A stretch of 64,000 nucleotides of DNA from Paracoccaceae bacterium (GTDB lineage: Bacteria; Pseudomonadota; Alphaproteobacteria; Rhodobacterales; Rhodobacteraceae). Below are positions 3,345 through 40,895 of the stretch, piece by piece. The stretch spans positions 124,001 to 188,000 of the forward strand of contig JAIXPH010000032.1 of the NCBI GenBank assembly GCA_027486345.1, given 5' to 3'. The notes under the pieces were generated by a model. The model searched no databases. It saw only the letters and a program-made list of their open reading frames with translations, and was not told the origin of the DNA. Positions within the stretch are counted from its first letter, which is position 1; every line of letters begins with the position of its first letter. The translations under genes and the position numbers were made by a program.

Positions 3345-5810
<2,466 letters not shown>

Positions 5811-22984: not shown

Positions 22985-23404
22985 TCAGACCAGTTTCAGC
23001 AGCAAAGCCAGCAACTGCGCCCGTTCGGGCGCAGTCAACGGCCCAAGGGTTTCGGCGCTGACCTTCACCGCCGTGGCCACCCCGTCCGAAAACAGCGCCG
23101 CCCCCGCCCCGGTCAGGGACACGGTGAGGCGGCGTTTGTCGTTGGGATCAGATGCCGTTTCCACCAGCCCCTGCCGCGCCAGACGGTCCACCACGCCCTT
23201 GATCGTGGCCGCATCCATCGCCGTCATCCGGCCCAGATGGTTCTGTGACAGCGGCCCCAGCTCCGACAACCGCGCCAAAACCGCCCATTGCACGGATGTG
23301 ACCTGTGGCAGCCGTTCGGCGAAGATCGCCAGATGGCGCTGGGTCACGCGCCGCAGCACGTAGCCGATCTGGTCGTCCAGCACATATTCCGGGCGTTCTG
23401 TCAT
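22985..23404 (-). CDS. MarR-family regulator divergent from the molybdenum hydroxylase genes
   Basis: 139 residues from the ATG at 23404. The winged helix is seen in LGPLSQNHLGRMTAMDAATIKGVVDRLARQGLVETASDPNDKRR with the usual wing. Starts at 23476 or 23482 are possible but would leave only about 21 bp before the divergent gene and cover its promoter; 23404 leaves 99 bp. It probably represses the divergent catabolic genes until an aromatic or heterocyclic ligand binds. Confidence 0.88.
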   Translation of the reverse strand: MTERPEYVLDDQIGYVLRRVTQRHLAIFAERLPQVTSVQWAVLARLSELGPLSQNHLGRMTAMDAATIKGVVDRLARQGLVETASDPNDKRRLTVSLTGAGAALFSDGVATAVKVSAETLGPLTAPERAQLLALLLKLV

Positions 23405-23444
23405 CGCTTCGGGATAGACCGCGACCGATTGCCGCGCAAGATTG

Positions 23445-23485
23445 TTGACAGAGGCCCTGCCTGTCCGCAATCTCATGTGCATACA
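23445..23485 (+). promoter_or_regulatory. Candidate promoter and MarR site before the hydroxylase genes
   Basis: A perfect -35 TTGACA (23445-23450) with a weak CAATCT 17 bases on, followed by TGTGCATACA (23476-23485), a partial palindrome (TGT/ACA arms) near the expected start point. Only the -35 is strong. Confidence 0.35.
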
Positions 23486-23503
23486 AACAATGTGGGTCGC
23501 CCG

Positions 23504-24316: not shown

Positions 24317-26982
24317 TCACCTTCACCCTCAACGGCCAGCCCGTCACCACCGACACCGCCCCCACCCGCCGCCTGTCCGAAGTGCTGCGGGAAGACCTCG
24401 GCCTGAAAGGCACCAAGGTCGGCTGCGATGCGGGCGATTGCGGCTCTTGCACCGTGCTGGTCGATGGCCGCGCCCAATGCGCCTGTCTGACCCCCACCGC
24501 CCGTGTCGCGGGCGCGCAGGTGGAAACGGTCGAGGCCGAAACCCCCGAACTCACCCGCCTGCGCGCCGCCTTCCTGCGCCACGGCGCGGCGCAATGCGGC
24601 ATCTGCACGCCGGGCATGTTGATGGCGGCCGTGGACCTGCTGCGCCGCAATCCCACACCAACAGAAGCTGAGGCATCCAATTCCTTGGGCGGCGTCCTGT
24701 GCCGCTGCACCGGCTACCGCAAGATCATCGCCGCCGTCTGTGACACCACCGATGCCGCAGCGATCACAACCGGCGGCGTCGGCGCGGCGCTGCAACGGCT
24801 GGACGGCGCGGCCAAGGTGGCGGGCGATCTGTTCGGGGCCGATGTGGTCCCCGAAAGCGCGTTGACCCTGAAAGCCATCCGCTCGCCCCACCACCACGCC
24901 GCCTTCACCTTTGGCGACCTGACCGCCTATGCCCGACGCCCCGGCATCGCTGCCGTCTTCACCGCCGCCGACATCCCCGGTGTCAACCGTTTCGGCGTCA
25001 TCCCCCCCTTCGCCGACCAACCCGCCATCGCCCCCAGCCCCGTGCGGTTTCGCGGCGAATGCGTGGCCTTGGTGGCGTTTGAACCGGGGGTGACACCTGA
25101 TCTGTCCGACTTCCCGATCACATGGCAGGAACTGCCCGCCCTGATGGCCCCGGCGCTGGCCGAAACCTCCGCCCTCCTGATCCACGCAAACCGCCCCGGC
25201 AACCGCCTGACCGAAGGCCGTGTGGTCAAGGGCGACGCCGCAAGCGCCCTCGCCACCTCCGCCCATGTCGTCGAAGGCGAGATCACCACCGCCTTCGTCG
25301 AACACGCCTATATCGAGCCTGAGGCGGGTTCCGCGTGGATGGAGGGCGATGTCCTCAACATCCGCGCCTGCACCCAAGCCCCCGTCATGGACCGCGACGA
25401 CACTGCCGCCATCCTTGGCCTGCCTGTGGACAAGGTCCGCATAAGGCCCAGCGCCGTGGGCGGCGGTTTCGGCTCCAAACTGGATGTCAGCCTGCAACCC
25501 TTGCTCGGCCTTGTGGCGCTGAAAACCGGGCGGCCCGTGCGGATGACTTACACACGGCAAGAAAGCATGGCCTCCACCACCAAACGCCACCCCGCCGAAA
25601 TCCGGGGCCGGATCGGTTGCGACGCCACAGGCCGGATCACGGCGGTGGAGTTCGATGGCCGCTTCGACACCGGCGCTTATGCAAGCTGGGGCCCCACCGT
25701 GGCGAACCGCGTCCCGGTCCATGCCTCTGGCCCCTACCTGACACCGCATGTCCACGCCCGCGCCCGCGCCATCCACACCAATGGCCCCGTCTCCGGCGCC
25801 TTCCGCGGCTTTGGCGTGCCACAGGCGGCGATCTGGCAGGAAACGCTCTACGACCAACTCGCCGACAAGGCCGGGATCGACCGGCTGGAGTTCCGCATCC
25901 TGAACGCCCTCAGCGATGGCGATCAATCTGCCACAGGCCAAGTGATGCAGGCCACTGGCATCCGCGCCTGCCTTGAGTCGCTCCGCCCCCATTGGCACCG
26001 CGCCTTGGCAGAGGCGCAGGGCAAACCGGGGCGCGGAGTAGGCCTCGCCTCCTGCTGGTATGGCTGCGGGAATACCTCATTGCCCAACCCCTCCACCATC
26101 CGCATCGGCATCACCGCGCAAGGCGACATCGTCCTGCACCAAGGCGCCACCGACATCGGCCAAGGCTCCAACACCGTCATCACCCAGATCGCCGCTAAGG
26201 CCTTGGGCCTGCCTGTCGAACAGTTCCACCTGATCGGCCCGGATACCTTCCTGTCCCCGGATGCCGGCAAAACCTCGGCCAGCCGACAAACCTATGTCTC
26301 CGGCCGCGCGGCGCATGACACCGCCCGCGCGCTGCGGGCACAGATCCTGCGGCTGGCCAATGCCTCGGACGCTGCCGCCTTGTTACTCAACCACGGCACC
26401 CTGACCGTCACCGAAGGCACCACCCGCCGCGACATCCCGCTCGCCTCCCTGCCCAAGGGCACAGACGGCTACGTCCTGCAAGCCGAAGAGACCTATGACC
26501 CGCCCACCGCGCCCTTGGATGGCAATGGCCAAGGCAAACCCTACGCCGTCTATGGCTATGGTGCGCAACTGGTGGAGCTGCAGGTGGACCCCACCCTCGG
26601 CACCGTCACACTGCTGAACATCACCGCCGCCCATGACGTCGGTCGCGCCATCAACCCCCAACTCGCCGAAGGCCAGATCGAAGGCGGCATCGCCCAAGGC
26701 ATCGGCCTTGCCCTGATGGAGGAATACCTCCCCGGCCGCACCGAGAACCTGCACGACTACCTGATCCCCACCACGGGTGACGTTCCGCCCATCCAATCAA
26801 TCCTGATCGAAATCCCCGATCCCGAAGGCCCCTTCGGCGCGAAAGGCCTGGGCGAGCATGTCCTGATCCCCACCGCCCCCGCCATCCTCAACGCCATCCG
26901 CCACGCCACCGGGGCCAAGATCACCCGCCTGCCCGCTCTGCCCCACCGCATCCGCGCCGCGATCCAAGGGGCGCAGCCATGA
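24313..26982 (+). CDS. Molybdenum hydroxylase: fused 2Fe-2S and molybdopterin subunits
   Basis: 889 residues combining small and large chains of the xanthine oxidase family. The plant-type 2Fe-2S ligands are Cys38, 43, 46 and 58; the second cluster uses Cys95, 98, 130 and 132 (CGIC and CRC motifs). The Moco domains begin around residue 150, with GGGFGSK in the glutamine-loop region and KGLGEHVLIPTAPAI containing the conserved catalytic glutamate. Such enzymes hydroxylate a ring carbon next to nitrogen using water. The closest functional idea is a nicotinate-dehydrogenase-like enzyme because a 6-hydroxynicotinate-reductase homologue follows; the substrate is not proven. Confidence 0.92.
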   Translation: MITFTLNGQPVTTDTAPTRRLSEVLREDLGLKGTKVGCDAGDCGSCTVLVDGRAQCACLTPTARVAGAQVETVEAETPELTRLRAAFLRHGAAQCGICTPGMLMAAVDLLRRNPTPTEAEASNSLGGVLCRCTGYRKIIAAVCDTTDAAAITTGGVGAALQRLDGAAKVAGDLFGADVVPESALTLKAIRSPHHHAAFTFGDLTAYARRPGIAAVFTAADIPGVNRFGVIPPFADQPAIAPSPVRFRGECVALVAFEPGVTPDLSDFPITWQELPALMAPALAETSALLIHANRPGNRLTEGRVVKGDAASALATSAHVVEGEITTAFVEHAYIEPEAGSAWMEGDVLNIRACTQAPVMDRDDTAAILGLPVDKVRIRPSAVGGGFGSKLDVSLQPLLGLVALKTGRPVRMTYTRQESMASTTKRHPAEIRGRIGCDATGRITAVEFDGRFDTGAYASWGPTVANRVPVHASGPYLTPHVHARARAIHTNGPVSGAFRGFGVPQAAIWQETLYDQLADKAGIDRLEFRILNALSDGDQSATGQVMQATGIRACLESLRPHWHRALAEAQGKPGRGVGLASCWYGCGNTSLPNPSTIRIGITAQGDIVLHQGATDIGQGSNTVITQIAAKALGLPVEQFHLIGPDTFLSPDAGKTSASRQTYVSGRAAHDTARALRAQILRLANASDAAALLLNHGTLTVTEGTTRRDIPLASLPKGTDGYVLQAEETYDPPTAPLDGNGQGKPYAVYGYGAQLVELQVDPTLGTVTLLNITAAHDVGRAINPQLAEGQIEGGIAQGIGLALMEEYLPGRTENLHDYLIPTTGDVPPIQSILIEIPDPEGPFGAKGLGEHVLIPTAPAILNAIRHATGAKITRLPALPHRIRAAIQGAQP

Positions 26983-26987
26983 CCCCG

Positions 26988-27041
26988 CATTTTCTGTCCT
27001 CAAATATCCTCGGGAGGTCTGGAGGGCAGACAGCCCTCCAG
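26988..27041 (+). repeat. Hairpin-plus-leader repeat cassette, copy B
   Basis: CATTTTCTGTCCTCAAATAT followed by CCTCGGGAGGT and a perfect 9-bp hairpin CTGGAGGGC (27019-27027), loop AGACA, GCCCTCCAG (27033-27041). The same cassette as at 1062 and 58390, but in this copy no gene starts from its ATG on the minus strand. Confidence 0.75.
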
Positions 27042-27074
27042 CCTTGGGCGCAAAACCGCACAGGTCAGAATCAT

Positions 27075-27272
27075 CCCCTCACCCTACCCCTCTCCCCCAA
27101 GGGGAGAGGGAACCGCGCCCCCCACCAAACCACGCCCTTCCATCTCCTTTGCTCAAATATCCTCGGGTGGTCCGGAGGGCAGACAGCCCTCCGGGGCAAG
27201 ACGCAGGGACCGACAGCGCAAGGCCGCACGCGTCCCCCTCTCCCCTCGGGGGAGAGGGCCGGGGTGAGGGGG
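27075..27272. repeat. REPIN-like element 1: two inverted palindromic repeats
   Basis: The left unit CCCCTCACCCT plus hairpin CTCTCCCCC/GGGGAGAGGG (27075-27110) and the right unit CCCTCTCCCC/GGGGGAGAGGG ending GGGGTGAGGGGG (27234-27272) are the same repeat in opposite orientation, about 120 bp apart. Cassette copy C lies between them. It fills most of the 295-bp gap between the Moco gene and the reductase gene. The terminal GTGAGGGGG is also the likely Shine-Dalgarno of the reductase. Confidence 0.7.
27148..27194 (+). repeat. Hairpin-plus-leader repeat cassette, copy C (partial)
   Basis: TTTGCTCAAATATCCTCGGG, lacking the TTTTCTGTC part, followed by the hairpin CCGGAGGGC (27172-27180), loop AGACA, GCCCTCCGG (27186-27194). 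Compared with copy B one stem pair is C-G instead of T-A, a compensated change that supports selection on the folded form. Confidence 0.7.
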
Positions 27273-27277
27273 CATCG

Positions 27278-28726
27278 ATGACCGCCCCAGAAAAGAACGC
27301 CCCAGAAAAAATCCGCTGCGATGCCTGTCCGGTGATGTGCTACATCGCCCCCGGCCAGACCGGGGCCTGCGACCGATACGCCAATGATGCGGGGCGGATT
27401 GTGCGCACCGATCCCGTTCTGATGCTGACCCATGCGCTGGAACAGGGTGGCTGCGTCATCCCTTTCGCTGCCGCCGATTGGCAGGACGGGATGATCCCGC
27501 AAGATGCCATCGTCACCGGCATCGGATCGGGCACCACTTACCCCGATTACAAACCCGCGCCCTTCATCGTCTCGTCGCAGGTCGACGGCGCGGATATGGT
27601 CACCGTGGTGACAGAAGCGATCTTTTCCTACTGCGGCGTCAAGGTGAAGATCGACACCGACCGACACCTTGGCCCCGAAGGCGCGGTGATCCGGGTGGAC
27701 GGCGAACCCGTCGGCCATGTCACCACCGCCGAATACGGGTCACAGATGCTCTCGCTTGGCGGGGTGCACCACCTGACCGGCGGCGGCAAGGCCGAAGGCC
27801 GCGTCACCTGCGCCGCGATGCTGGCGCTGTGCAACCGCGAAGCCGTGACGCTGACAATCGATGGCGGGTCGACCGTTAGGGTGCAGGCAGGCCAGCCGCC
27901 CATCGTGGACGGCACCCCCGAACGGCGCATGCGCGTGGGCTGCGGATCGGCCACCATCGGCATGTTCGCCAGCCAATGGCAGGGGTTGGTGGATGAGGTC
28001 GTGGTGGTCGATGACCATATCACCGGCGTTGTCAGTGAACATCAGGCGGGCAAGGTCATTGGCTGGCCCGCCACCGGCATCCGGATCAAGGGCCACCGCT
28101 CCACCCCCGGGCGCTATTTCCGCGTCTCGGAACCCGGCCTCGGTTGGGGCGGAACGAAACTGACCGACCCGTTGGACATCCTCGGCCCATGGAACCCGGC
28201 CAAGGGCGCGCGGCCCGGATTGCGGCTGCTGATGGTGTCCACGACGGGCGAGGAATACGGCTATTACGTGCTGGATCAGTCTCTAACCCCGCAAAAATGC
28301 CCGTTGCCGCCGGAACTGGAACCCACCGTCCGGCTGATTGACGAAAACTGCGAGCCCTCGCTCTGCACCGTCCTGTTCATGGGCGGCGCGGGGGGAAGTT
28401 TGCGGGCGGGGGTCACGAAAAACCCGGTGCGGCTGACCCGTTCCGTTCAGGGGCGGGAAACGCGGCTGACCTCCGGCGGGGCCGACTGCTATGTCTGGCC
28501 GGGGGGTGGGATCACCTTCATGGTCGATGTGCTTGACCTGCCGCCGGGCAGTTTCGGTTACGTCCCCACACCCGCGCTTGTGGCCCCGTTGGAGTTCACC
28601 CTGCCACGGGACGCCTACCTGCGCTTGGGGGGGCACGGCGAGGCAATCCGCTCCGTCAGCGACATCATGGAAAAGGGCGGCGAATATCCCACCGCGGCAA
28701 AACTGCACCCAAGGGGGCAGGGATGA
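27278..28726 (+). CDS. 6-hydroxynicotinate reductase-like iron-sulfur protein
   Basis: 482 residues, near the ~488 of the Eubacterium barkeri enzyme that reduces 6-hydroxynicotinate to 6-oxo-tetrahydronicotinate with ferredoxin. The N-terminus carries a four-cysteine motif CX2CX3CX9C (Cys14, 17, 21, 31) suited to an Fe-S cluster. Conserved stretches include SGTTYPDYKPAPFIVSSQV and GGGKAEGRVTCAAMLALCNR. The ATG at 27278 follows a GAGGGGG site; longer in-frame readings enter the repeat element. It overlaps the UPF0280 gene by ATGA. The homology call is firm in outline, but the true substrate may be a different N-heterocycle. Confidence 0.82.
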   Translation: MTAPEKNAPEKIRCDACPVMCYIAPGQTGACDRYANDAGRIVRTDPVLMLTHALEQGGCVIPFAAADWQDGMIPQDAIVTGIGSGTTYPDYKPAPFIVSSQVDGADMVTVVTEAIFSYCGVKVKIDTDRHLGPEGAVIRVDGEPVGHVTTAEYGSQMLSLGGVHHLTGGGKAEGRVTCAAMLALCNREAVTLTIDGGSTVRVQAGQPPIVDGTPERRMRVGCGSATIGMFASQWQGLVDEVVVVDDHITGVVSEHQAGKVIGWPATGIRIKGHRSTPGRYFRVSEPGLGWGGTKLTDPLDILGPWNPAKGARPGLRLLMVSTTGEEYGYYVLDQSLTPQKCPLPPELEPTVRLIDENCEPSLCTVLFMGGAGGSLRAGVTKNPVRLTRSVQGRETRLTSGGADCYVWPGGGITFMVDVLDLPPGSFGYVPTPALVAPLEFTLPRDAYLRLGGHGEAIRSVSDIMEKGGEYPTAAKLHPRGQG

Positions 28727-29547
28727 GCGTGCAAGTCACATGGCTTCCGGGGGGACGGTTGCACCTGCATCACGGGCCGATCGACCTGATCCTGCAAGGC
28801 TGGGGTGACGCGCGGGCATTACGGGCGGGATATGAGGCGGCGGTGGACAGATTCGACACTATCCTTGCCGAATTGGTGTCTGAACTGCCCGCGCTGCGGT
28901 CCCCGGATGCCCCTGTCACCGGCCCCACCGCCCGGCTGATGGCCGCAGCGGTGGCCCCCTTCCGCCCCACCTTCATCACGCCCATGGCTGCCGTCGCCGG
29001 GGCGGTCGCCGACACCATCCTGCGGGCATTCATCCGCCCCGGCATCACCCGCGCCTATGCCAACAACGGCGGCGACATCGCGCTGCATCTGGACCCCGGC
29101 GAACACCTGACCTGCGCCGTCGCGGGCGCAGGGGGCAGCGTCACGATCCACGCCGCAGACCGGGTGCGCGGCATCGCGACCTCGGGCTGGCGGGGGCGCA
29201 GTTGGTCAATGGGCATCGCCGATTCAGTGACTATCCTTGCCAAAACGGCGGCCGAGGCCGATGCAGCGGCCACCATCGTGGCCAATGCGGTGGACCTGCC
29301 CGGCCATCCCGGCATCACCCGCCGCCCTGCCCATGAATGCCAAGCCGACAGCGATCTCGGCCCCCGTCTGGTGACCACCCATGTCGCCGCCTTGACGCCA
29401 ACGGAAGCCGCCGCCGCCGTAGACCGCGGCGCAGCCGCCGGTCAGGCGGCTCTCGCGCGCGGCCTTATCGACGGGGCGCTGATTTTCCTGCACCCTGCGG
29501 TGCGCACCCTTGGCACCCTGCGCCTGAAGGAGCCTGAACTTGCCTGA
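28723..29547 (+). CDS. UPF0280 family protein (ApbE-like fold)
   Basis: 274 residues. Features of the UPF0280 group are TPMAAVAGAVADTILRAF, RAYANNGGDIALHL, RGIATSGWRGRSWSMGIADSV and a C-terminal domain typical of ApbE-like proteins. ApbE itself attaches FMN to threonines, but UPF0280 function is not established. In this setting it could mature or supply a cofactor for the neighbouring reductase; that is inference. It overlaps the reductase gene (4 bases) and the next gene (8 bases). Confidence 0.85.
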   Translation: MSVQVTWLPGGRLHLHHGPIDLILQGWGDARALRAGYEAAVDRFDTILAELVSELPALRSPDAPVTGPTARLMAAAVAPFRPTFITPMAAVAGAVADTILRAFIRPGITRAYANNGGDIALHLDPGEHLTCAVAGAGGSVTIHAADRVRGIATSGWRGRSWSMGIADSVTILAKTAAEADAAATIVANAVDLPGHPGITRRPAHECQADSDLGPRLVTTHVAALTPTEAAAAVDRGAAAGQAALARGLIDGALIFLHPAVRTLGTLRLKEPELA

Positions 29548-30121
29548 CTTCCCCCTCCGCCGCATCACCACGCAGATCGAGGAGATCCACCACGAAGGTG
29601 GCCCCCTGGCCATCCCGCCCGCCTTGCGCGGCGCGATCATCGCCGTGGTCGGCAACCCTTTCGCCGGGCGTTACGAGCCGGATTTGCAGCCCGCGATGGA
29701 GGCGTTGAAACCCCTCGCCCTCATGCTGACCGACCGTCTGGTCGCGGCTTTGGGCGGGCGCGACGGGATTGACGCCTATGGCAAGGGCGCCATTGTGGGC
29801 GAAAGCGGCGAGTCCGAACATGGCGCGCTGTGGCATGTCGCGGGCGGGTATGGGATGCGCGACCGTCTGGGCGAATGTCGGGCCATCGTGCCTTCGGCCA
29901 TGAAGGTCGGCGGCATCGGCTCCACGCTGGATGTCCCATTGGGCCACCTGAATGCGGCCTATGTGCGGTCACGTTTTGACGTGATCACCGTGCGGGTCGA
30001 GGATGCACCAAAGGCCAATGAAATGGCGCTGGTCCTGGCCATGGCGCGCGGGGGCCGCGTCCACAGCCGCATGGGCGGGCTGGAGGCCTGGCAAGTGAAG
30101 GGTGAGGACGGGCTGAGATGA
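29540..30121 (+). CDS. DUF1185 'amino acid synthesis' family protein
   Basis: 193 residues of the PF06684 type: TQIEEIHHEGG, GNPFAGRYEPDLQPAMEAL, AYGKGAIVGESGESEHGALW, and RVEDAPKANEMALVLAMARGGR. The Pfam name is historical and no reaction is established. The start is TTG at 29540, supported by AAGGAG 7 bases upstream, and lies 8 bases inside the UPF0280 gene. It is consistently in the same operon line as the reductase here, suggesting action on the ring or ring-opened intermediate. Confidence 0.8.
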   Translation: MPDFPLRRITTQIEEIHHEGGPLAIPPALRGAIIAVVGNPFAGRYEPDLQPAMEALKPLALMLTDRLVAALGGRDGIDAYGKGAIVGESGESEHGALWHVAGGYGMRDRLGECRAIVPSAMKVGGIGSTLDVPLGHLNAAYVRSRFDVITVRVEDAPKANEMALVLAMARGGRVHSRMGGLEAWQVKGEDGLR

Positions 30122-31518
30122 CCGATCCGCACCAACCAAATTCCTTGCAAGGAATTTGCCAAGGATTTTCAAAAATCCTTGGGGCGGTGCCGGTGGTTGC
30201 CCTTCTGCCCTCTGCCGCTTTCGCCTGTGCCCTGCCGCCGTCGATCATCCTGACCCTGCCGACAGGCTGGTATATGGCGGGGGCAGCGTTGACGGTCTTG
30301 CTGACGGCGCTGTTCGGGGCGGCGGCGGATCGGTTGCCGGACCCGCAACCGCGGCTTTTGTGGGACCGGCGCGTCCTGCTGCCGGAAACGCTGACGTCCT
30401 ATGTCGCGTTCCTGTGCTTTCTGGGCCTGCTCGCCGTGGGTTGGCTGGGCGCGCGGGACCCGATGCACAACCTGATGACGCTGGTGTTCTGGACCGGCGT
30501 CTGGATCGCGCTTCCGCTTGGGTCGATGCTCTTGGGCAATCTGTGGCGGCCACTGAACCCGTGGACCGGGCCGGTGCGGATTGCACGGGTCCTGCTGAAC
30601 CGAACCGGCAGCATCGGTCTGTCCCGTCTGGGCCATCTGCCCGCCGTGCTGGGCTATGGCGGCTTTGTCTGGTTCCAAATTGTCTCAATGTCACCGGATG
30701 ATCCCTTTGTGCTGGCCACTGCTGCCGCCGCCTATTGGCTGGTGATCTTCACCCTTGCCGTGCTGGAGGGCGACGCGTGGTTGCAGAAGGGCGAGTTTCT
30801 GACCGTCCTCATGGGCTGGCTGTCGCGCGTCTCGCCGCTGTGGGTCGAGAGTGACGGCACGAGGTCAAGGCACATGCTCGGCTGGCCGGGGGCGCAGGTG
30901 CTGCGGTTGCCGCCGTTGACCCGCAGCGAAATCGCGCTGGTCACGATGGCGCTGGCGGCGCTGACCTTTGACGGGCTGGCGGAGACGTTCTGGTGGCAGG
31001 CCATCATCGGGGAAAACCCGCTGGAGCCGACTGGGCGATCCGGCGTGATGTGGGACAACTCGCTTGGGCTGATGCTGGCTTGGGCGCTGACGGCGGGCAC
31101 GATCCTTGGCGCGATCCGTCTGGGGCAATGGTTCGGCGGGCGCTTTGCCACCGGGCCGATCATGCTGTCCTTTCTGGCCATCGCCGCCGGATACCATGCC
31201 GCGCATAATCTGGTGACCCTGCTGACCGCCGGGCAATACACCCTTGCCGCGCTGAATGATCCGCTGTTCCGGGGGGACAGTGTCCTTGGCCTGTCGGAGT
31301 TCTTCGTCTCCTTCGGCTTCCTGACCGATGCCGGGACCATGCCGCTGATCTATGCCGCGCAATTCGCCGCCATCCTGCTGGCGCATCTGTTGGCGGTGTA
31401 CCTGAGCCTGAAACTGGCCGGACAGGCCCCCGCGCGGGCGCATCTGCCGTTGACCTTACTGATGGTGGGTTACACAACCCTGGGGTTGTGGCTACTCTCC
31501 ACCGCGCGAAGTGCCTGA
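30118..31518 (+). CDS. Polytopic membrane protein of unknown function
   Basis: 466 residues from ATG 30118 (ATGA overlap with the previous gene), with about 11-12 hydrophobic segments. A signal-like stretch ends ALLPSAAFA, followed by PTGWYMAGAALTVLLTALFG. It resembles membrane proteins that databases label 'fenitrothion hydrolase', a name I would not take as function here. The first 23 codons overlap a double palindrome (30138-30182); a GTG at 30187 would start directly on MPVVALLPSAAFA, giving 443 residues and leaving the palindromes untranslated. Its place before an ABC importer suggests transport or membrane electron transfer, unproven. Confidence 0.7.
   Translation: MTDPHQPNSLQGICQGFSKILGAVPVVALLPSAAFACALPPSIILTLPTGWYMAGAALTVLLTALFGAAADRLPDPQPRLLWDRRVLLPETLTSYVAFLCFLGLLAVGWLGARDPMHNLMTLVFWTGVWIALPLGSMLLGNLWRPLNPWTGPVRIARVLLNRTGSIGLSRLGHLPAVLGYGGFVWFQIVSMSPDDPFVLATAAAAYWLVIFTLAVLEGDAWLQKGEFLTVLMGWLSRVSPLWVESDGTRSRHMLGWPGAQVLRLPPLTRSEIALVTMALAALTFDGLAETFWWQAIIGENPLEPTGRSGVMWDNSLGLMLAWALTAGTILGAIRLGQWFGGRFATGPIMLSFLAIAAGYHAAHNLVTLLTAGQYTLAALNDPLFRGDSVLGLSEFFVSFGFLTDAGTMPLIYAAQFAAILLAHLLAVYLSLKLAGQAPARAHLPLTLLMVGYTTLGLWLLSTARSA
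30138..30182. repeat. Two adjacent perfect palindromes at the DUF1185/membrane-protein junction
   Basis: AAATTCCTTG/CAAGGAATTT (30138-30157, no loop) is followed one base later by CCAAGGATTTT-CA-AAAATCCTTGG (30159-30182). The arms of the two are near-complementary to each other, so alternative pairings are possible in the mRNA. There is no T-tract. The AT-rich composition stands out from flanking coding DNA. Confidence 0.8.
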
Positions 31519-31606: not shown

Positions 31607-32881
31607 ATGAAGAAAGACCTGCTCGTCCCGAGCCGTCGCTCGGTCCTCAAGGGAATGGGGGCCGGCATCGTGGCCTCGGCCTTCCCCGGCTATACCTGGG
31701 CGCAGTCCTCGGCCCCGATCAAGTTGGGGTTCCAGTTGCACCGCACGGGGATCGGGGCCGCCTATGGCCGCTGGTATGAACGCACCGCGCAGGCGGCGCT
31801 GAAGGGGGTGAATGACGCCGGTGGCATCGGTGGCCGTCCGGTGGAGATTCTGTTCGAGGATGACGCGACCGACCCCAAGCGCGGCGCAGAGGTTGTGGAA
31901 AAGCTGGCCAATGACGGCTGCGATCTGATCTTCGGGCCGCTCTTCTCGCATGTCGTGATCGGCTCTGCCCCGCGTGCGGGGGAGTTGAAGATCCCCTATC
32001 TGGTCTGCTCCGAAGGCTATCACGTGGCCTCGGGCATGCTGAACCGCTGGACGCTGCAACCCGGCATCACCGATGTGCGGTCACAAGTATCGTCGATGGC
32101 CCCGTGGGTGGCGGCGAATTTGGGGAAAAAGGTCACGATGGTCTATCCCGACTACGCCTTTGGCTACGACCACCGCGATTTCTTTACCGAGGCGATCAAG
32201 GCCCAAGGCGGCGAGGTCATCGCCCAGATCGCCATCCCGCCGACGGAAACCACCTTCACCCGCTACCTGCCGCAAATCCCGGCGGAGACCGAGGTTCTGT
32301 ATCACGTCATGGTCGGCCCCGCCGTGCTGACCTTTGTCAAAGAGTTGGGCGATTTCTACGGCTCTGGCGCGCGGCCGCAAATCTTTGGCTTCATCGACTC
32401 GCTGGAGGCCGTCGATACCGCCTCGCCGGGGTTGGAATTCCTTGAGGGGACGTATTTCTGGGAGGCGATGAACCGCGTCAAACAGGACGGCCAATCGGAC
32501 CATGAGGCCGCCTATCGCGCCGCCGTGGGGGTGGATGACAATGGCGCGTCGGTGACCGATGCGGCGGATGTGTCCACCTACAGCCACATGTTCAGCGTCT
32601 GGGAAACCCTGCACACGATCAAGGCCGGGATGGAGGCGGCGGGCTATCAATCCACCGCCGACCGCCAGAAGTTCGTCGAGGCGTTGGAGGCGATGACGAC
32701 CATGCCCGAAGGCCCCGGCAATCCGCAGGGCGACAAACTGTTCAACGGCAAGACCCATCAGGTCTTCGGCCATCAGAACATCAGCCAGGTCACCGGGGGC
32801 AAGTTGATGCGCGTGCACCGCACCAGCATCGAGGATGGCCAATACGCCGACGCCGTGGATTACACCACGATGTCCTTCTGA
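31607..32881 (+). CDS. Branched-chain-type ABC transporter substrate-binding protein, Tat-exported
   Basis: 424 residues, type I periplasmic binding fold (LivJ/Peripla_BP_6). A twin-arginine signal SRRSVLKGMGAGIVASAF begins at residue 9 and ends near YTWAQ. The mature part shows IKLGFQLHRTGIGAAYGRW, ALKGVNDAGGIGGRPVEILFEDDATDPKRG and VVEKLANDGCDLIFGPLFS. It probably captures the cluster's substrate, an amino- or carboxylate-bearing small molecule. GGAGAGAAG precedes the ATG. An 88-bp gap upstream, without a recognisable promoter, separates it from the membrane-protein gene. Confidence 0.9.
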   Translation: MKKDLLVPSRRSVLKGMGAGIVASAFPGYTWAQSSAPIKLGFQLHRTGIGAAYGRWYERTAQAALKGVNDAGGIGGRPVEILFEDDATDPKRGAEVVEKLANDGCDLIFGPLFSHVVIGSAPRAGELKIPYLVCSEGYHVASGMLNRWTLQPGITDVRSQVSSMAPWVAANLGKKVTMVYPDYAFGYDHRDFFTEAIKAQGGEVIAQIAIPPTETTFTRYLPQIPAETEVLYHVMVGPAVLTFVKELGDFYGSGARPQIFGFIDSLEAVDTASPGLEFLEGTYFWEAMNRVKQDGQSDHEAAYRAAVGVDDNGASVTDAADVSTYSHMFSVWETLHTIKAGMEAAGYQSTADRQKFVEALEAMTTMPEGPGNPQGDKLFNGKTHQVFGHQNISQVTGGKLMRVHRTSIEDGQYADAVDYTTMSF

Positions 32882-32889
32882 TCCCAACC

Positions 32890-32916: not shown

Positions 32917-32930
32917 GCGGGGATGCCGCC

Positions 32931-33809
32931 TTGAGTTTCGGACCCTTCCTTTTGCTGGCGGTGATGGAAAGCCTTGTCACCGCCGCCACACTCGCCTTGA
33001 CCGCTGTGGGGCTGTCCCTGGTGTTCGGCACCATGCGGGTGGTCAACGTCGCGCATGGCGAGTTTTTCATGCTGGGCGCAGTTCTGGCGTGGTTTGTGAC
33101 CGTTTCGGTCGGCGGGCCGGAATGGGTGGGCTTTGTCGCGGCTCTCGCACTTGCACCCTTGGGTGTGGCCGCGGTGGCCACTCTGGCGGATCGCGTGGTG
33201 CTGAAGCGCCTGAACTATGAGCCCGAGGCAACCATCGTCGCCACCATCGGCCTCTTGTACATCCTGCAACAGGCGGCACTGACCTTTTACGGACCCGAGG
33301 CGCGGCCGGTGGAGCCGCCCTTCAACTTTCGCATCCAATTCCCGTGGTTCGGCTATTCCGGCTACAAGCTGTTCGTGATCTTTGCCGCCGTGGCCGTTTT
33401 GCTGGCGGTCTGGTGGGGCCTGACGCGCAGCAAGGCAGGGCTGATTATGCGCGCCACGCAGGTGGACCGCGACACCGCCCGCGCCTTTGGGATCAATGTC
33501 GATAGGGTCTATGCAGGCGTTTTCGCCCTTGGCGCAGCCTTGGCGGCAATAGCGGCGGTGCTGATCGTGCCGATCCAGCAGGCGCATTACCTGATGGGGG
33601 GGGAGCCTTTGCTTCTGGCCTTCATCACCGTGATCGTGGGCGGCTTGGGCAGTTTACGCGGCACGGTGATCGCGGCCTTGGTCATCGGGCTGTCGGACGG
33701 GTTGATCGCCTTCTTCTACTCGCCGACACTGGCGAAGATTCTGGCGACGTTGCTGGTCGCCTTGGTGCTGGTGTTCCGCCCGCAGGGGCTGTTCGGGGCG
33801 AAGGCATGA
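32931..33809 (+). CDS. ABC transporter permease, LivH-like
   Basis: 292 residues from a TTG at 32931 (MSFGPFLLLAVMESL); an ATG at 32964 would shorten it by 11 residues. Eight or so membrane segments carry LivH motifs: GLSLVFGTMRVVNVAHGEFFMLGA, TIGLLYILQQAALTFYGPE, AFGINVDRVYAGVFALGAALAAIAAVL and VGGLGSLRGTVIAALVIGLSDGL. It overlaps the LivM-like gene by 4 bases. Confidence 0.9.
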   Translation: MSFGPFLLLAVMESLVTAATLALTAVGLSLVFGTMRVVNVAHGEFFMLGAVLAWFVTVSVGGPEWVGFVAALALAPLGVAAVATLADRVVLKRLNYEPEATIVATIGLLYILQQAALTFYGPEARPVEPPFNFRIQFPWFGYSGYKLFVIFAAVAVLLAVWWGLTRSKAGLIMRATQVDRDTARAFGINVDRVYAGVFALGAALAAIAAVLIVPIQQAHYLMGGEPLLLAFITVIVGGLGSLRGTVIAALVIGLSDGLIAFFYSPTLAKILATLLVALVLVFRPQGLFGAKA

Positions 33810-34747
33810 AGGCTAAAGACACGAAAATCTGGATCGCGCATCTGGCCGTGTTGGCGGCTTTGGGCGTCCTGCTGGCCGTGCTGCCCGCCTATCACGCCAC
33901 CAACCTCGCCCGTATCCTGACGCTGGCGGTGTTCGCGACGGGCTATAACCTTGCCTTCGGCTACACCGGGCTGTTGTCGCTGGGCCATGCGCTGTTCTTT
34001 GCCGCTGGTGTCTATGGTGCGGCTTTGCCGGTCACCTATTGGGGTCTGTCGCCCCTGCCCGCCATCGCTTTGGGCTGTCTGGCGGGGGGCGGGTTGGCCA
34101 CGCTGGTCGGCCTATTGGCGCTGCGAACCGCGGGGGTCAGTTTCATGATCGTCACGCTGATGTTCGCGCAGGCGGGGTATCTGACCCTACTCTATTTCGG
34201 CCAAATCACGGGTGGGGATGAGGGGCTGGTGATGCCCGACGCCACCGCCCTGATCCCCGGCCTTTCCCCCGATACCGCCCGCGCGGTGATCGCTTTCACG
34301 TTGTTCGCTATCGCCTTGCTGGTCAGCCTGATCGTGATCCGCAGCCGCCTTGGCCGCGTCATGGTGGCGATGCGCGAAAACGAGGAGCGCAGCCGGATGC
34401 TCGGCTACAACCCCTTCACCGTGAAGTTGTCGGCGCTGGTGCTGTCCGGCCTCTTCGCAGGCGCGGCGGGGGCGGGCTATGCCCTGTTGTTCGGCTATGC
34501 CGGGGCGAGTTTTGCGACCATCCAATATTCCATCCTGCCGATGCTCTATGTGCTGATGGGGGGCGCGGGGACCACGCTTGGCCCGCTGCTGGGCACGGCG
34601 GCGATGTTCTATCTGGTCGATGGCGCGGCGCGGATCACCACGGCGACGCTGCTGGTCGTGGGGGTGGCGCTGGTGCTGCTGATCCTGTTTGCCCCCAAGG
34701 GCATTCTTGGCACCCTCAGGGAAAGGGGCGCGCGATGGATTCCGTGA
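33806..34747 (+). CDS. ABC transporter permease, LivM-like
   Basis: 313 residues with 8-10 membrane segments and LivM motifs FATGYNLAFGYTGLLSLGHALFF, GVSFMIVTLMFAQ, VIRSRLGRVMVAMRENEERSRMLGYN and LMGGAGTTLGPLLGTAA. It would pair with the LivH-like subunit as a heterodimeric channel. It overlaps both neighbours. Confidence 0.92.
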   Translation: MKAKDTKIWIAHLAVLAALGVLLAVLPAYHATNLARILTLAVFATGYNLAFGYTGLLSLGHALFFAAGVYGAALPVTYWGLSPLPAIALGCLAGGGLATLVGLLALRTAGVSFMIVTLMFAQAGYLTLLYFGQITGGDEGLVMPDATALIPGLSPDTARAVIAFTLFAIALLVSLIVIRSRLGRVMVAMRENEERSRMLGYNPFTVKLSALVLSGLFAGAAGAGYALLFGYAGASFATIQYSILPMLYVLMGGAGTTLGPLLGTAAMFYLVDGAARITTATLLVVGVALVLLILFAPKGILGTLRERGARWIP

Positions 34748-35454: not shown

Positions 35455-36136
35455 CGGGGTGGCGGCGGGCTATGGCGCGGTGCGGGTGTTGGAGGGCGTG
35501 TCGCTGACCGCAGAACCGGGCCAGATCACCTGCATCATGGGCCGTAACGGGGCAGGGAAATCGACCCTGATCAAGGCGATCATGGGGCTGGTTCCGCCCT
35601 CGGGTGGCACGATCACGCTGGACGGCGTGGCACTGCACAGCCTGCCTGCGCATCTGATCCCGCGGCATGGGGTGGCCTATGTCCCGCAGGGGCGGCGGCT
35701 CTTCGGGCCACTGACGGTGGCGGAAAACCTGTCGATCGGGCTGATGACGCGCGGGTTTGGCGATGAAACGCGCGAACGGGTGCTGACCCTGTTTCCCCGC
35801 CTGCGGGAACGTCTGGATCAGGTGTCACAGACCCTGTCGGGGGGCGAGCAACAGATGCTGGCCATCGGGCGGGCGCTCTGTCTGGAGCCCAAGGTGATCC
35901 TTCTGGACGAACCGACCGAAGGCTTGCAGCCCTCGATGATCGCGCTGATCCGGGATGTGGTGGTGAAACTGCGCGCCCAAGGGGTGGCCGTGGTTTTGGT
36001 CGAACAGCGCCCGGATGCCGTGCTGCGGATGGCCGACCGCGTCGCCTTCATGGCGCAAGGGCGGGTGGCTGAAGTTGTTGCGGTGGCAGAATTGACGCGG
36101 GAATCGTCTCTATTCCAGCACTATGTGGGGGTCTGA
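35438..36136 (+). CDS. ABC transporter ATPase, LivF-like
   Basis: 232 residues: Walker A GRNGAGKST, signature LSGGEQQMLAIGRAL, Walker B VILLDEPTEGLQPSMI. It pairs with the LivG-like ATPase and completes a five-component importer. Its stop codon is immediately followed by the HyuA-like ATG, showing that import and catabolism are expressed together. Confidence 0.93.
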   Translation: MMLRLDGVAAGYGAVRVLEGVSLTAEPGQITCIMGRNGAGKSTLIKAIMGLVPPSGGTITLDGVALHSLPAHLIPRHGVAYVPQGRRLFGPLTVAENLSIGLMTRGFGDETRERVLTLFPRLRERLDQVSQTLSGGEQQMLAIGRALCLEPKVILLDEPTEGLQPSMIALIRDVVVKLRAQGVAVVLVEQRPDAVLRMADRVAFMAQGRVAEVVAVAELTRESSLFQHYVGV

Positions 36137-38155
36137 ATGTCGGGACTAGTCGCCGGGGTGGATGTCGGCGGAACCTTTACCGATCTGGTGATCCTTGATC
36201 CTGCCAGCGGTGCCGTGCGTCTGGCCAAGGTTCCGACCAGCCTGCCCAATCAGGCGCCGGGGGTGCTAGCGGCGTTTGACGCCGCAGGGGCCGAACTGGC
36301 GGGGATTGACCTGATCGTGCATGGCACGACCACCACGACCAATGCCGTGCTGGAACGCGCGCTGTGTAAAACGGGTCTGATCACCACCGCCGGTTTCCGC
36401 GATGTGCTGGAACTGGGGCGGCGGACGCGGCCGCAACCCTATGGCATGACCGGCACCTTCACCCCCGTCATCCCCCGCGACCTGCGGCTTGAGGTGCCCG
36501 AACGGATGGACGCGCAGGGGCGGGTTCTGACGCCCTTGGACGAAGGCGCGCTACGGGAAACAGTCTCTAAACTGGCGGAAATGGGCTGTGAAAGCCTCGT
36601 GATCCATTTCCTGCATGCCTATGCCAACCCCGCGCATGAACTGCGGGCGCTGGACATCGCGCGGGAGATTTGGCCCACGCCCTATATCACCTGCGGGCAT
36701 CAGTTGCTGTCCGAAAGCCGCGAGTTTGAGCGGGGCGTGACGGCAGCGGTCAACGCCTCGGTCCAGCCCTTGCTGGAGCGGTATGTGGCGCGGTTGGCGG
36801 ATGGGCTGCGCGACAAGGGCTATACCCGTGATCTGTTGGTGATGAACGGCAATGGCGGGATGGTCGCGGCGGGCAAGGTCAGCCGCGAGGCGGTGAAGAC
36901 GGTGATGAGCGGCCCGGCATCCGGCGTGATGGCGGCGATTGCCACGGGGCGGCGGGCGGGTTTTGCGAACCTGCTGACCTATGACATGGGCGGCACCTCA
37001 ACCGATGTGGCGATGATCCGCGACCACCGCGCGCCGGTGTCGAATGAGATCGAGGTGGAATATGCCATGCCGATCCATGTGCCGATGGTGGATGTGCGCA
37101 CCGTCGGCGCGGGCGGCGGGTCCATCGCGCGGGTGGATGCCGGGGGGATGCTGCGGGTGGGGCCGGAATCGGCGGGATCGACGCCGGGGCCGATCTGCTA
37201 TGGCAGGGGTGGCACGCGGGTCACGATTTCGGACGCGAACCTGATCCTTGGCCGCCTGCCTGCGGATCGTTTCGGGGTCGCCGCCGAGGATGCGCGGCAA
37301 GCGATGGCGGACCAGATTGCCGCGCCCTTGGGTCTGGGGGTGGAACAGGCGGCAGAGGCGGTCTTGCGCATCGCCAACACGCATATGGCCGGGGCCATCC
37401 GCATGGTTTCCATCAGCATGGGCGCCGATCCGCGCGACTTTGCGCTGTTCGCTTTTGGCGGGGCGGGGCCGCTCCATGCGACCGCCTTGGCGCGGGAATT
37501 GGCCGTGCCGCGCGTCCTTATTCCCGCCCGTCCGGGGATCACCAATGCCTTGGGCTGTGTGGTGGCCGACCTGCGGCATGACTTTGTGCGCACGGTGAAC
37601 CGGCCTCTGGACGTGGCGGATATGGATCAGGTGCATGACATTCTGGCGGGGCAAGAGGCAGAAGGCCGCGCCCTGATCGCGGCGGAAAAGATCACGCTGG
37701 CCGATGTCCGCGCCGAATTCAGCGCCGATATGCAGTTTGTGGGTCAAACCCATCTGCTGCGGATCGCCTTGCCGCATGCGACCCCGTCGCGTGCCGAACT
37801 TCAGACGCTGTTCGAACGCGCCTATCACGACCGCTTCCGCGTCGATCTGCCCAGCATCCGCGCGAACCTTGTGAACCTGAATTGCTCGGTCATCGGGCGC
37901 AGGCCGGATATGGACCTGTCGCGACTGATCGACCCCGCCGGACGGCAGGCAGTCGCCACGCCGAAGGCGCATCGGCGGGTCTGGTTCGGCGGCTGGGTGG
38001 ATACGCCGGTTTATTGGCGCGACCACCTGCTGCTTGATCCCGGCCTGAGCGGCCCCTGCATCATCGAACAGATGGACACGACCATCGTGATTGATCCCGG
38101 CTGCACGGTTTCGGGTGATGCCGATGGCAATCTGATCGTGGGGGTGGGCGCATGA
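36137..38155 (+). CDS. Hydantoinase/oxoprolinase family subunit A (HyuA-like)
   Basis: 672 residues. The N-terminal ASKHA phosphate-1 motif is GVDVGGTFTDLVIL; also visible are VHGTTTTTNAVLERA, RTRPQPYGMT, GNGGMVAAGKVSREAVKTVMSGPASGV, TYDMGGTSTDVAMI and AFGGAGPLHATALARELAVPRVLIP. These are standard for the ATP-dependent N-methylhydantoinase A/5-oxoprolinase family, which opens lactam or hydantoin rings with ATP or carboxylates related substrates. It overlaps the B subunit by ATGA. Confidence 0.92.
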   Translation: MSGLVAGVDVGGTFTDLVILDPASGAVRLAKVPTSLPNQAPGVLAAFDAAGAELAGIDLIVHGTTTTTNAVLERALCKTGLITTAGFRDVLELGRRTRPQPYGMTGTFTPVIPRDLRLEVPERMDAQGRVLTPLDEGALRETVSKLAEMGCESLVIHFLHAYANPAHELRALDIAREIWPTPYITCGHQLLSESREFERGVTAAVNASVQPLLERYVARLADGLRDKGYTRDLLVMNGNGGMVAAGKVSREAVKTVMSGPASGVMAAIATGRRAGFANLLTYDMGGTSTDVAMIRDHRAPVSNEIEVEYAMPIHVPMVDVRTVGAGGGSIARVDAGGMLRVGPESAGSTPGPICYGRGGTRVTISDANLILGRLPADRFGVAAEDARQAMADQIAAPLGLGVEQAAEAVLRIANTHMAGAIRMVSISMGADPRDFALFAFGGAGPLHATALARELAVPRVLIPARPGITNALGCVVADLRHDFVRTVNRPLDVADMDQVHDILAGQEAEGRALIAAEKITLADVRAEFSADMQFVGQTHLLRIALPHATPSRAELQTLFERAYHDRFRVDLPSIRANLVNLNCSVIGRRPDMDLSRLIDPAGRQAVATPKAHRRVWFGGWVDTPVYWRDHLLLDPGLSGPCIIEQMDTTIVIDPGCTVSGDADGNLIVGVGA

Positions 38156-39834
38156 TTGATCCGGTTACGCTGGCCGTCATCCAAGCGGGCTTGCAACAGG
38201 TCTGCGATGAGATGGACCTGACCTTTTCCCGCGCGGCATTCTCCCCGGTGATTGCCGAAGCCGACGACCGTTCCGACGGCATCTATTCCGCCACGGATGG
38301 CAGTCTGATCGCCCAAGGGTCGCGCGGTCTGCCGGTCTTTGTCGGGACGATGCAATTCTCCACCCGGCATATCGTGGAGCGGATTGCCTCTGGCCAGACC
38401 CTGCCGCCGGAACCGGGGGATATCTACATCGTCAATGACCCCTATCTTGGCGGGACGCATCTGATGGATGTGCGCTTCGCCATGCCGTTTTACAGGGACG
38501 GGGCAATCTTCTGCTGGCTGTCCAACACCGGCCATTGGCCCGACACTGGCGGCGCGGTGCCGGGCGGGTTTTCCGCCAGTGCCATCAGCGCGGAACAGGA
38601 AGGGCTGCGCCTGCCGCCCGTCAAGCTGTTCAAGCGCGGGGTGATGGATACCGAGTTGTGGCAGGTGATCTGCTCCAACATCCGGGTCAGTGAGCAACGG
38701 ATCGGGGATGTGAAGGCGCAAGCCTCTGCCTTGCTGGTTGGGGCGGAACGGATGGGGCAGTTGATGGACCGTTACGGCGACGCCACGGTGACAGAGGCGA
38801 TTGCCGAGATGCGGGTGCTGGCCGCGCGGCAGATGCGGGCGAATATCGGGCTGATCCCGGACGGCATCTATCAGGCCAAGGCGATCGTGGACAGCGACGG
38901 GGTGGTGAATGAACCGCTGACCATCGCGCTGACCTTGACGAAGGGGGAAGGCGGCCTGACCTTTGACTTCGCCGGAAGTTCGCTGCCCTGCATGGGGCCG
39001 ATGAACTCAGTCCGCGCGACCACGCTGTCGTCGGTTTACCTCGCGATGCGGCATATCTTCCCCGATGTGCCCATCAGCGCCGGGGCGTTTGAACCGCTGG
39101 CGGTGACCGGCATCGAGAGCACCTTCCTTGATGCGCATTATCCCCGCCCGGTGTCAGGCTGTGCGGCGGAAGTGTCGCAACGCATCGCCGAGGCGGTCTT
39201 TGCCGCCTTGGTGCAGGCGTTGCCTGACAAGGTAACCGCCTCCCCTGCGGGAACTTCCGGCAATTTTGGCCTTGGCGGGCATGACCCGGAAAAGGGCCGG
39301 GATTATGTGATGTATCAGATTTCGGGCGGCGGCTATGGCGGGAATGCGCGCCATGACGGGCTGTCCAACGGCTGCTCCACCATCGGCATCTCCAAGGCAC
39401 CGCCGGTGGAGATCATGGAACAGACCTTCCCCGTCCTTTACCGCCGCTATGCCCTGCATGAAGGATCAGGCGGCGCGGGGCAGCATCGCGGCGGCTTTGG
39501 GCTGGATTATGAGATCGAGCTGTTGCGCGGTCAGGCGCGGGCCTCTTTCGTGATGGACCACGGGCGCACCGGACCGCAGGGGGCGCAAGGCGGGCAGGAT
39601 GGCGCGGTGAACCGGGTGGAAATCCTGAAGGGCGATCAGGTCATCATCCCGGATCACCTGTCCAAGGCGCAAGACATCGCCCTGTCTCCGGGGGACCGCG
39701 TCCGCGTCCGCACACCGGGCGGCGGCGGATACGGCGACCCCGGTAAACGCGATCCAAAGGCGATTGCCGAAGATGTGCGCCTTGGCCGATACTCGGCCGC
39801 GGATGCGTATCGGTTATGGGGTTACAGCGCATGA
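38152..39834 (+). CDS. Hydantoinase/oxoprolinase family subunit B (HyuB-like)
   Basis: 560 residues. Typical motifs are EMDLTFSRAAFSPVIAEADDRSDGIY, DIYIVNDPYLGGTHLMDVRFAMPFY, FDFAGSSLPCMGPMNSV, and AGQHRGGFGLDYEIELL. HyuB provides the second half of the lactam-hydrolase active complex. In this cluster it could open the ring produced by hydroxylation and reduction. It overlaps the following CorA gene by 4 bases. Confidence 0.92.
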   Translation: MIDPVTLAVIQAGLQQVCDEMDLTFSRAAFSPVIAEADDRSDGIYSATDGSLIAQGSRGLPVFVGTMQFSTRHIVERIASGQTLPPEPGDIYIVNDPYLGGTHLMDVRFAMPFYRDGAIFCWLSNTGHWPDTGGAVPGGFSASAISAEQEGLRLPPVKLFKRGVMDTELWQVICSNIRVSEQRIGDVKAQASALLVGAERMGQLMDRYGDATVTEAIAEMRVLAARQMRANIGLIPDGIYQAKAIVDSDGVVNEPLTIALTLTKGEGGLTFDFAGSSLPCMGPMNSVRATTLSSVYLAMRHIFPDVPISAGAFEPLAVTGIESTFLDAHYPRPVSGCAAEVSQRIAEAVFAALVQALPDKVTASPAGTSGNFGLGGHDPEKGRDYVMYQISGGGYGGNARHDGLSNGCSTIGISKAPPVEIMEQTFPVLYRRYALHEGSGGAGQHRGGFGLDYEIELLRGQARASFVMDHGRTGPQGAQGGQDGAVNRVEILKGDQVIIPDHLSKAQDIALSPGDRVRVRTPGGGGYGDPGKRDPKAIAEDVRLGRYSAADAYRLWGYSA

Positions 39835-40880: not shown

Positions 40881-40895
40881 CCTCTCATGGCTACG

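Follow-up and report, generated by a model that had tools for sequence, protein, structure and literature searches.

How could a bacterium degrade a pyridine carboxylate by the reductive route if it encodes no enamidase to open the reduced ring? This question is raised by a 16.8-kb gene cluster of a Paracoccaceae bacterium, which extends from a divergently transcribed MarR-family regulator gene through hyuB in a stretch of 64,000 nucleotides (the window) belonging to contig C8 of assembly G000 (completeness, 97.8%). Scans of the window for open reading frames (ORFs) and protein families located all the genes named in an initial annotation of this DNA at the places where it had put them. The system for uptake and degradation of an N-heterocycle that it had proposed is supported by our analyses, which narrow the substrate. 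We propose that the cluster probably mediates the import and degradation of nicotinate (or 6-hydroxynicotinate) via 1,4,5,6-tetrahydro-6-oxonicotinate (THON), with HyuAB in place of enamidase. Judged from sequence comparisons, our verdict is that the cluster is a variant of the known reductive (THON) nicotinate pathway.

The reductive pathway is known from Eubacterium barkeri and Azorhizobium caulinodans. The cluster resembles it by a molybdenum (Mo)-dependent hydroxylation, an Hnr-type reductase and, by prediction, the opening of the tetrahydro-6-oxonicotinate lactam, and differs from it by the replacement of enamidase by HyuAB, by the presence of an ATP-binding cassette (ABC) importer in the same run of genes, and by the lack of identified lower-pathway genes. 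We infer the following order of reactions, all of the genes involved being on the forward strand. The importer, which is of the branched-chain type, would take up the pyridine carboxylate; it comprises a periplasmic substrate-binding protein (PF13458; positions 31607 to 32881), two permeases (PF02653; 32964 to 33809, in an ORF that opens at 32835 and for which the start is a guess, and 33806 to 34747), and two ATPases (PF00005 and PF12399, 34735 to 35454; PF00005, 35438 to 36136). A hydroxylase of the xanthine oxidase family, consisting of a flavin adenine dinucleotide (FAD) subunit (PF00941 and PF03450; 23504 to 24316) and a fused [2Fe-2S] and Mo-binding subunit (PF00111, PF01799, PF02738, and PF20256; 24313 to 26982) and predicted to be a nicotinate dehydrogenase, would form 6-hydroxynicotinate. 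This compound would be reduced to THON by Hnr, a 482-residue homologue of 6-hydroxynicotinate reductase, as its relatives are named (27278 to 28726), following maturation by a protein of the UPF0280 family (28723 to 29547; 346.1 bits with model NF003322, cut-off 290). HyuA (PF05378 and PF01968; 36137 to 38155) and HyuB (PF02538, E = 4e-151; 38152 to 39834), the A and B subunits of a hydantoinase/oxoprolinase-type enzyme and the predicted THON lactam hydrolase, would open the six-membered ring at the expense of ATP. The aminomethylene product would finally be hydrolyzed to 2-formylglutarate and ammonia, probably with the assistance of the DUF1185 (AA_synth) protein (29540 to 30121; PF06684, E = 6.5e-65, 218 bits, gathering cut-off 27), on the way to glutarate.

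THON is a six-membered lactam, and enzymes of the HyuAB family open lactams with ATP; the proposed chemistry thus fits the family. The Hydant_A_N, Hydantoinase_A, and Hydantoinase_B domains of HyuAB all scored above their cut-offs. The PF05378/PF01968/PF02538 architecture is that of caprolactamase, N-methylhydantoinase, 5-oxoprolinase, and acetophenone carboxylase, the nearest solved chains being N-methylhydantoinase (7hk5) and 5-oxoprolinase (6yra). The HyuAB proteins of the window differ in that they did not reach the cut-off of any NCBIfam model that they matched and in that they belong to a clade of their own found with hnr.

The argument for the replacement of enamidase comes from the distribution of the two candidate ring openers. 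The initial annotation had reported that the cluster lacks an enamidase gene, and this absence extended to the entire assembly at E ≤ 1e-60, the threshold used for calling the enzyme. In a set of 149 genomes of the family, hnr was found in 68 genomes and was absent from 81. Of the 149 genomes, 30 had enamidase, among them 29 hnr-positive genomes and one hnr-negative genome (G048, 42%); 28 of the 29 enamidases were 75 to 87% identical to the Sulfitobacter protein, and that of G109 was 49% identical. HyuA, for which matches were taken at E ≤ 1e-150, was present in 53 of the 149 genomes with a bimodal distribution of identities, at least 65% in 37 genomes, including that of the window, and 40 to 51% in the rest. 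An hnr-associated ortholog class was accordingly defined by an identity of about 59% or more, and when 57 fetched HyuA sequences were placed in a tree, a branch marked 99* split 45 class members from 12 background sequences. Among the 68 hnr genomes of the family, 36 had HyuA of this class, 29 had enamidase, none had both, and 3 had neither. A sample of 398 genomes of the phylum provided 30 further hnr genomes (32 minus two already counted), in which enamidase was found 17 times (with one stop in the aligned stretch in 7 of the 17 rows), HyuA 15 times, both openers twice, and neither opener never. For the 98 hnr genomes pooled, enamidase was thus found in 46 and HyuA in 51, including 2 with both, and neither in 3 (HyuA class only, 49; enamidase only, 44). 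The corresponding raw Fisher value was 1e-21, related genomes not being independent. In the two genomes with both openers, the enamidase gene was located in a separate, hnr-free locus that contains two DUF1185 genes (L239 and L240). The 13 typed plasmid records, out of 26 with hnr, contained exactly one opener each, plasmid L126 encoding an additional HyuA of the background class (43%).

Since hnr genomes hardly ever lacked an opener and hardly ever had two, we argue that HyuAB and enamidase replace each other, an exchange that these distributions render well supported. Hydroxylases of the NicAB-like and FAD/Mo types were each found with either opener, and the opener is therefore not tied to the first step; it would seem to be a replaceable module whose substrate is a shared intermediate. 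Because a true enamidase accompanies the same core in other relatives, the comparison supports HyuAB as one of two interchangeable ring openers. The replacement of the classical enamidase step by HyuAB, which had been offered as a guess in the initial annotation, thereby gained strong, though indirect, support from the complementary distribution. One locus encoding enamidase, from Sulfitobacter pontiacus (L291, positions 1 to 5800), also contains adjoining genes for an AMP-binding protein, acyl-coenzyme A (CoA) and 3-hydroxyacyl-CoA dehydrogenases, and an enoyl-CoA hydratase, which are candidates for the lower pathway.

The core of the cluster is conserved. The cluster was present in a genome of the same genus (G104). 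Among the 60 hnr neighborhoods of the family that were read first (the other 8 being the window and those of 7 genomes, 5 of which were read later), hnr was paired with the UPF0280 gene in all 60, DUF1185 was present in 56, and the complete gene order recurred in 6 (L033, L034, L037, L038, L040, and L042). The recurring gene order and the hnr-UPF0280 pairing therefore indicate that the cluster is not a chance assembly. Identity between Hnr proteins ranged from 58 to 83% across the family set. The core, the importer, and HyuAB were found together in three annotated plasmid records, and the core and HyuAB in two more. In 18 further HyuA loci, the genes for the substrate-binding protein grouped with that of the window in 16 cases, and those for the permeases and ATPases did so in 9 or 10; the group of a 466-residue membrane protein encoded upstream of the importer covered all 18 loci but included overlapping false frames. 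The initial annotation had tied its reading to the co-occurrence of these families in other genomes, and the reductase, UPF0280, DUF1185, the importer, and HyuAB do recur together. Two damaged or irregular copies were also observed: a decaying cluster in G014 (L088), with five in-frame stops in hnr, three in the UPF0280 gene, and a 49% identical HyuA alongside, and a cluster in G164 (L215) that is otherwise complete with HyuA and in which the hnr match spans two overlapping frames (7512 to 8400).

UPF0280 was tightly associated with Hnr. At E ≤ 0.001, UPF0280 was found in 67 of the 68 hnr-positive and in none of the 81 hnr-negative genomes of the family, the sole hnr genome without it having a truncated hnr; 63 of the 67 matches were above the model cut-off, and the remaining four were fragments or contained stops. 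In the phylum sample, UPF0280 was above the cut-off in 32 of 32 hnr-positive genomes and in 0 of 366 others, two more matches below the cut-off being short pieces. An enamidase-anchored scan of genome contigs, in which the best 80 of 523 relatives were kept as named loci, extended the association to Firmicutes, Desulfobacterota, Chloroflexi, Actinomycetota, Proteobacteria, and other phyla: hnr was found in 58 of these 80 loci and UPF0280 in 53 of the 58. Four of the five exceptions were at the end of a contig or of the locus; the fifth (L151, for which only the locus was read) was not. Acetobacterium bakii locus L129, whose enamidase is 83% identical to 2vun, likewise contains DUF1185 and UPF0280.

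What UPF0280 may do for Hnr was approached from both proteins. At E ≤ 0.001, neither Pfam nor NCBIfam models matched Hnr. Sequence and profile searches of the PDB yielded no relative, and the predicted structure of Hnr (predicted local distance difference test [pLDDT] score of 83) lacked a fold match at E ≤ 0.001, the best value being 0.045. It was 40 to 48% identical to 22 and 62 to 67% identical to 8 of the Hnr proteins from enamidase-bearing loci of several phyla. The CX2CX3CX9C motif that the initial annotation had pointed out is made up of C14, C17, C21, and C31, which were invariant in 126 of 126 homologues, as was C222. According to Alhapel et al., who reportedly described the E. barkeri pathway in 2006, the reductase of that organism is said to contain a covalently bound flavin. 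T226 in the sequence GCGSAT of Hnr was considered as a universal ApbE-type acceptor threonine and rejected, since this position is occupied by Ala in 23 of the 126 homologues (Thr in 99, Ser in 3, and Val in 1); other invariant Ser or Thr residues exist. Genes for ferredoxin-NADP reductases adjoin hnr or lie some kilobases away in four annotated records (L123, 3831 to 4667; L124, 11030 to 11857; L125, 10917 to 11690; L291, 7502 to 8308) and are candidates for the supply of electrons to Hnr.

For UPF0280, the predicted structure (pLDDT, 95) had 29 Foldseek rows at E ≤ 0.001, which comprised only DVU1097, a member of its own family, and ApbE-type flavin mononucleotide (FMN) transferases (27 rows with E values from 3.7e-5 to 9.5e-4 and modest template modeling [TM] scores of 0.3 to 0.5). 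Profile searches returned 2o34 first (5e-21) and FMN transferases from 0.005. UPF0280 thus resembles ApbE (FAD:protein FMN transferase) by its predicted fold and by colinear GG, TSG, and ADxxAT blocks, and differs from it by the absence of a Pfam match (E ≤ 0.001), by a weak profile score (E = 0.005), and by the lack of the invariant His. In the ADxxAT block, whose Asp and Thr belong to the metal site in ApbE, D180 was conserved in 35 of 35 aligned sequences and T184 in 34 of 35. No invariant or nearly invariant His was present among these 35 sequences; the conserved His of ApbE is H257 of the V. cholerae protein. One study places the end of COG2122 homology apparently short of the flavin-binding region (PMC5764234). 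UPF0280 is likely to be a dedicated maturase of Hnr, and the chances that it acts as a flavin transferase are about even. A client-specific role is supported by the paralogue pair of A. bakii, which has one UPF0280 gene near hnr (L129) and a relative adjoining DUF39 (L244). This pairing of a UPF0280 relative with a client enzyme is reminiscent of COG2122/MA1715 and DUF39 in homocysteine synthesis, from which the present system differs in that Hnr and DUF39 are not significantly similar (E = 0.05 to 0.28). Of 24 DUF39 loci, read with flanks of only about 1.5 kb, 3 included a UPF0280 relative. Homology between Hnr and DUF39 was set aside as a lead only, a short stretch (VDVVT..T..P..SG) being aligned in three hhalign comparisons and never significantly, and a PDB profile search with DUF39 returned only antibody-like and decoration-protein matches (E = 0.03 to 0.08). 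The combined proposal that UPF0280 proteins form a second class of ApbE-fold maturases, each specific for its client, with one paralogue flavinylating or otherwise charging Hnr and another serving DUF39 in homocysteine synthesis, and that HyuAB is an ATP-dependent THON lactamase repeatedly exchanged for enamidase is tentative, and we would place it somewhat short of an even chance.

UPF0280 could instead serve Hnr through the delivery of sulfur or of an Fe-S cluster rather than through flavin attachment. According to two studies, D. vulgaris requires COG2122 to synthesize homocysteine, and a function in sulfur trafficking has been ascribed to the orthologue MA1715 (PMC5764234 and PMC12068725). 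The four-Cys motif and C222 of Hnr and the missing His of UPF0280 point in the same direction, whereas the restriction of fold matches to the UPF0280 family itself and FMN transferases, the near invariance of the ADxxAT block aligned with the latter enzymes, and the reported flavinylation of the E. barkeri reductase argue for flavin attachment. Sulfur delivery is a possibility to be taken seriously, if not the one that we would expect.

DUF1185 behaved differently from UPF0280. The gene was present in 62 of the 68 hnr genomes and also in 31 hnr-less genomes of the family, and in 18 of the 22 enamidase loci in which hnr was not found, some of which (e.g., L191) end where hnr might lie. On this basis, DUF1185 appears, apart from some exceptions, to go with ring opening and not with Hnr. 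Among these loci, seven from Chloroflexi and actinobacteria (L171, L173, L176, L179, L180, L182, and L184) combine enamidase, DUF1185, and a Mo hydroxylase with no hnr found in the locus, and possibly open a ring without a reductive step. A second DUF1185 gene in the same genome as the window lies within an operon (L304, 3768 to 12038; G000:C39) whose other genes encode aldehyde dehydrogenase, luciferase-like monooxygenase, flavin reductase, and alpha/beta hydrolase proteins. We take this operon to resemble that for ring cleavage of trigonelline (N-methylnicotinate) by a flavin monooxygenase. Trigonelline degradation proceeds by oxidative ring cleavage, unlike the reductive route proposed here. 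The two have in common the use of a DUF1185 protein, TgnF in the trigonelline (tgn) pathway, described in one report as stimulating a dehydrogenase of that pathway, a stimulation that, in the same report, was not obtained for that study's own DUF1185 protein (PMC7913881).

A shared role of DUF1185 in the hydrolysis or tautomerization of an aminomethylene-dicarboxylate can be suggested tentatively. A role as a formylglutarate decarboxylase was set aside, because DUF1185 also neighbors the enamidase gene in A. bakii and because E. barkeri, which has a similar enamidase, keeps the carbon concerned. DUF1185 was absent from four HyuAB-type loci (L046, L048, L069, and L230), and three of the four genomes (G110, G113, and G143) lacked it altogether, which weighs against an essential role. 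These absences, together with the suggestion of a possible environmental sensor made in a 2010 structure paper (PMC2954203), would suit a merely structural or regulatory companion. We regard such a role as doubtful, given the presence of DUF1185 in the 18 hnr-less enamidase loci, incomplete as some of these are, and of the second copy in an operon resembling a flavin-monooxygenase ring-cleavage cluster.

The assignment of HyuAB to the ring-opening step has to be weighed against several observations. The Hnr tree required only 7 changes between enamidase and HyuAB, so the independent exchange events are far fewer than 98, and starred branches alone left 5 independent pairs, about 3 with opposite openers and 2 without a difference; taken alone, these pairs do not reach significance (median p = 0.25). 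The threshold for the HyuA ortholog class was set after the bimodal distribution had been seen. Two of the three hnr genomes without an opener have a stop-ridden hnr (G014) or are 73% complete (G147), and the third (G029) is unexplained; the 49% identical HyuA adjoining the decaying cluster of G014 was left uncounted. With the caprolactamase models (NF050156 and NF050157), HyuAB scored 484 and 298 bits, far below the cut-off of 1000, so the family does not fix the substrate. No genes acting after ring opening were identified in the window. HyuAB might thus act elsewhere in a pathway with a nicotinate core, on a hydantoin, another lactam, or a later CoA-free intermediate, the exchange with enamidase reflecting accidental lineage swaps. 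The small number of changes, the many substrates taken by HyuAB-family enzymes, and the location of HyuAB not directly beside hnr in several genomes would agree with such a role. It is nonetheless unlikely, since the rarity of hnr genomes lacking both openers (3 of 98) is what an obligatory step predicts, and since the HyuA class occurred in just 1 of the 81 hnr-less genomes of the family. In that genome (G022), DUF1185 and HyuAB are present with room for the importer between them, on a contig that ends just upstream of DUF1185.

The replacement of enamidase by HyuAB in a nicotinate pathway, which we favor, is consistent with the company that the core keeps in relatives. In Neorhizobium and La6 records, genes that the depositors named NicA and NicB and annotated as nicotinate dehydrogenase adjoin hnr-UPF0280-DUF1185-HyuAB, these NicB proteins having no match to any NicB-specific NCBIfam model. 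The amidohydrolases adjoining the core on one Sulfitobacter and one Comamonadaceae plasmid matched the solved enamidase 2vun, which is that of E. barkeri, over the full length (E = 1e-105 and 1e-111) and are its orthologues. Strain SG-6C, described as degrading nicotinate and 6-hydroxynicotinate as the sole carbon source, has a homologue of hnr with 42% identity to its E. barkeri counterpart, and the conserved cluster around this gene also encodes an ABC transporter and two proteins without a known function (PMC3511419). These two proteins presumably correspond to UPF0280 and DUF1185. Owing to the NicAB and true enamidase neighbors and to the growth of SG-6C, nicotinate or 6-hydroxynicotinate is the most likely substrate. 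Another N-heterocyclic carboxylate (picolinate or another pyridine or pyrimidine), with Hnr and HyuAB acting on an analogous ring, is improbable: the hydroxylase scored below every NCBIfam equivalog cut-off, its fused Mo-binding subunit below those of all 20 models listed, and the importer is of a generic type, but NicAB and true enamidase adjoin the same Hnr family, and the operator, MarR, and core order are common to relatives.

In the Creative Commons-licensed literature of PubMed Central, subscription papers lying outside the search, we found no publication that connects HyuAB with nicotinate or UPF0280 with Hnr. If correct, the proposed pathway would provide functions for two families that lack assigned ones, UPF0280 beside Hnr and DUF1185 after ring opening, and would explain the degradation of vitamin B3 without an E. 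barkeri-type enamidase in many Alphaproteobacteria. The HyuAB family would gain a substrate class, the enamide lactams, and the names hydantoinase and acetophenone carboxylase, automatically given to HyuAB beside hnr, would be corrected. UPF0280 is puzzling in methanogens and sulfate reducers, and its chemistry would become accessible to tests through a client enzyme that acts on a simple small molecule.

The remaining features of the cluster concern its expression and layout. The MarR-family regulator (PF12802/PF01047; reverse strand, 22985 to 23404) is encoded in an ORF that opens at 23482. Its translation probably starts at 23404, because a putative promoter (TTGACA-N17-CAATCT) and an operator-like element, TGCATACAAACAA, defined by alignment with relatives, occupy positions 23445 to 23490 of the forward strand. 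TTGACA was kept in 14 of 14 aligned sequences (the window and 13 relatives), and several relatives had TTGTATACAAACAA or a near variant at the operator-like element, the core of which is palindromic. With up to 2 mismatches, TTGTATACAAACAA had 1 site in the window versus 0.02 expected by chance, the exact promoter/operator search pattern being derived from the window itself. A MarR or "NicR" gene was located inside the cluster in 7 of 8 annotated plasmid records, the exception being L125.

Two further details of the initial annotation were revised. The near-continuous run of overlapping genes that it described holds for most of the operon and is split before the reductase gene by a repeat element (26977 to 27271; 295 bp) made of two direct copies of 63 nucleotides and GC-rich palindromes. 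The reductase likely starts at ATG 27278, because the longer ORF from 27044 reads through this element. In a Fuscovulum ytuae relative, the genes overlap where the window has the element, which interrupts an otherwise overlapping operon and has no part in the mechanism. A third copy of its core is present at positions 58401 to 58416 of the window. UPF0280 and DUF1185 do lie between the reductase and the importer, but not exactly so, because the 466-residue membrane protein, which had been missed, intervenes after DUF1185 (30118 to 31518, forward strand). This protein has about 7 hydrophobic segments and no significant Pfam, NCBIfam, or PDB match, and its gene adjoins the importer genes in relatives. 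At the other end of the cluster, hyuB is directly followed by two tandem genes for CorA-type Mg transporters (39816 to 41911), the first of which overlaps hyuB.

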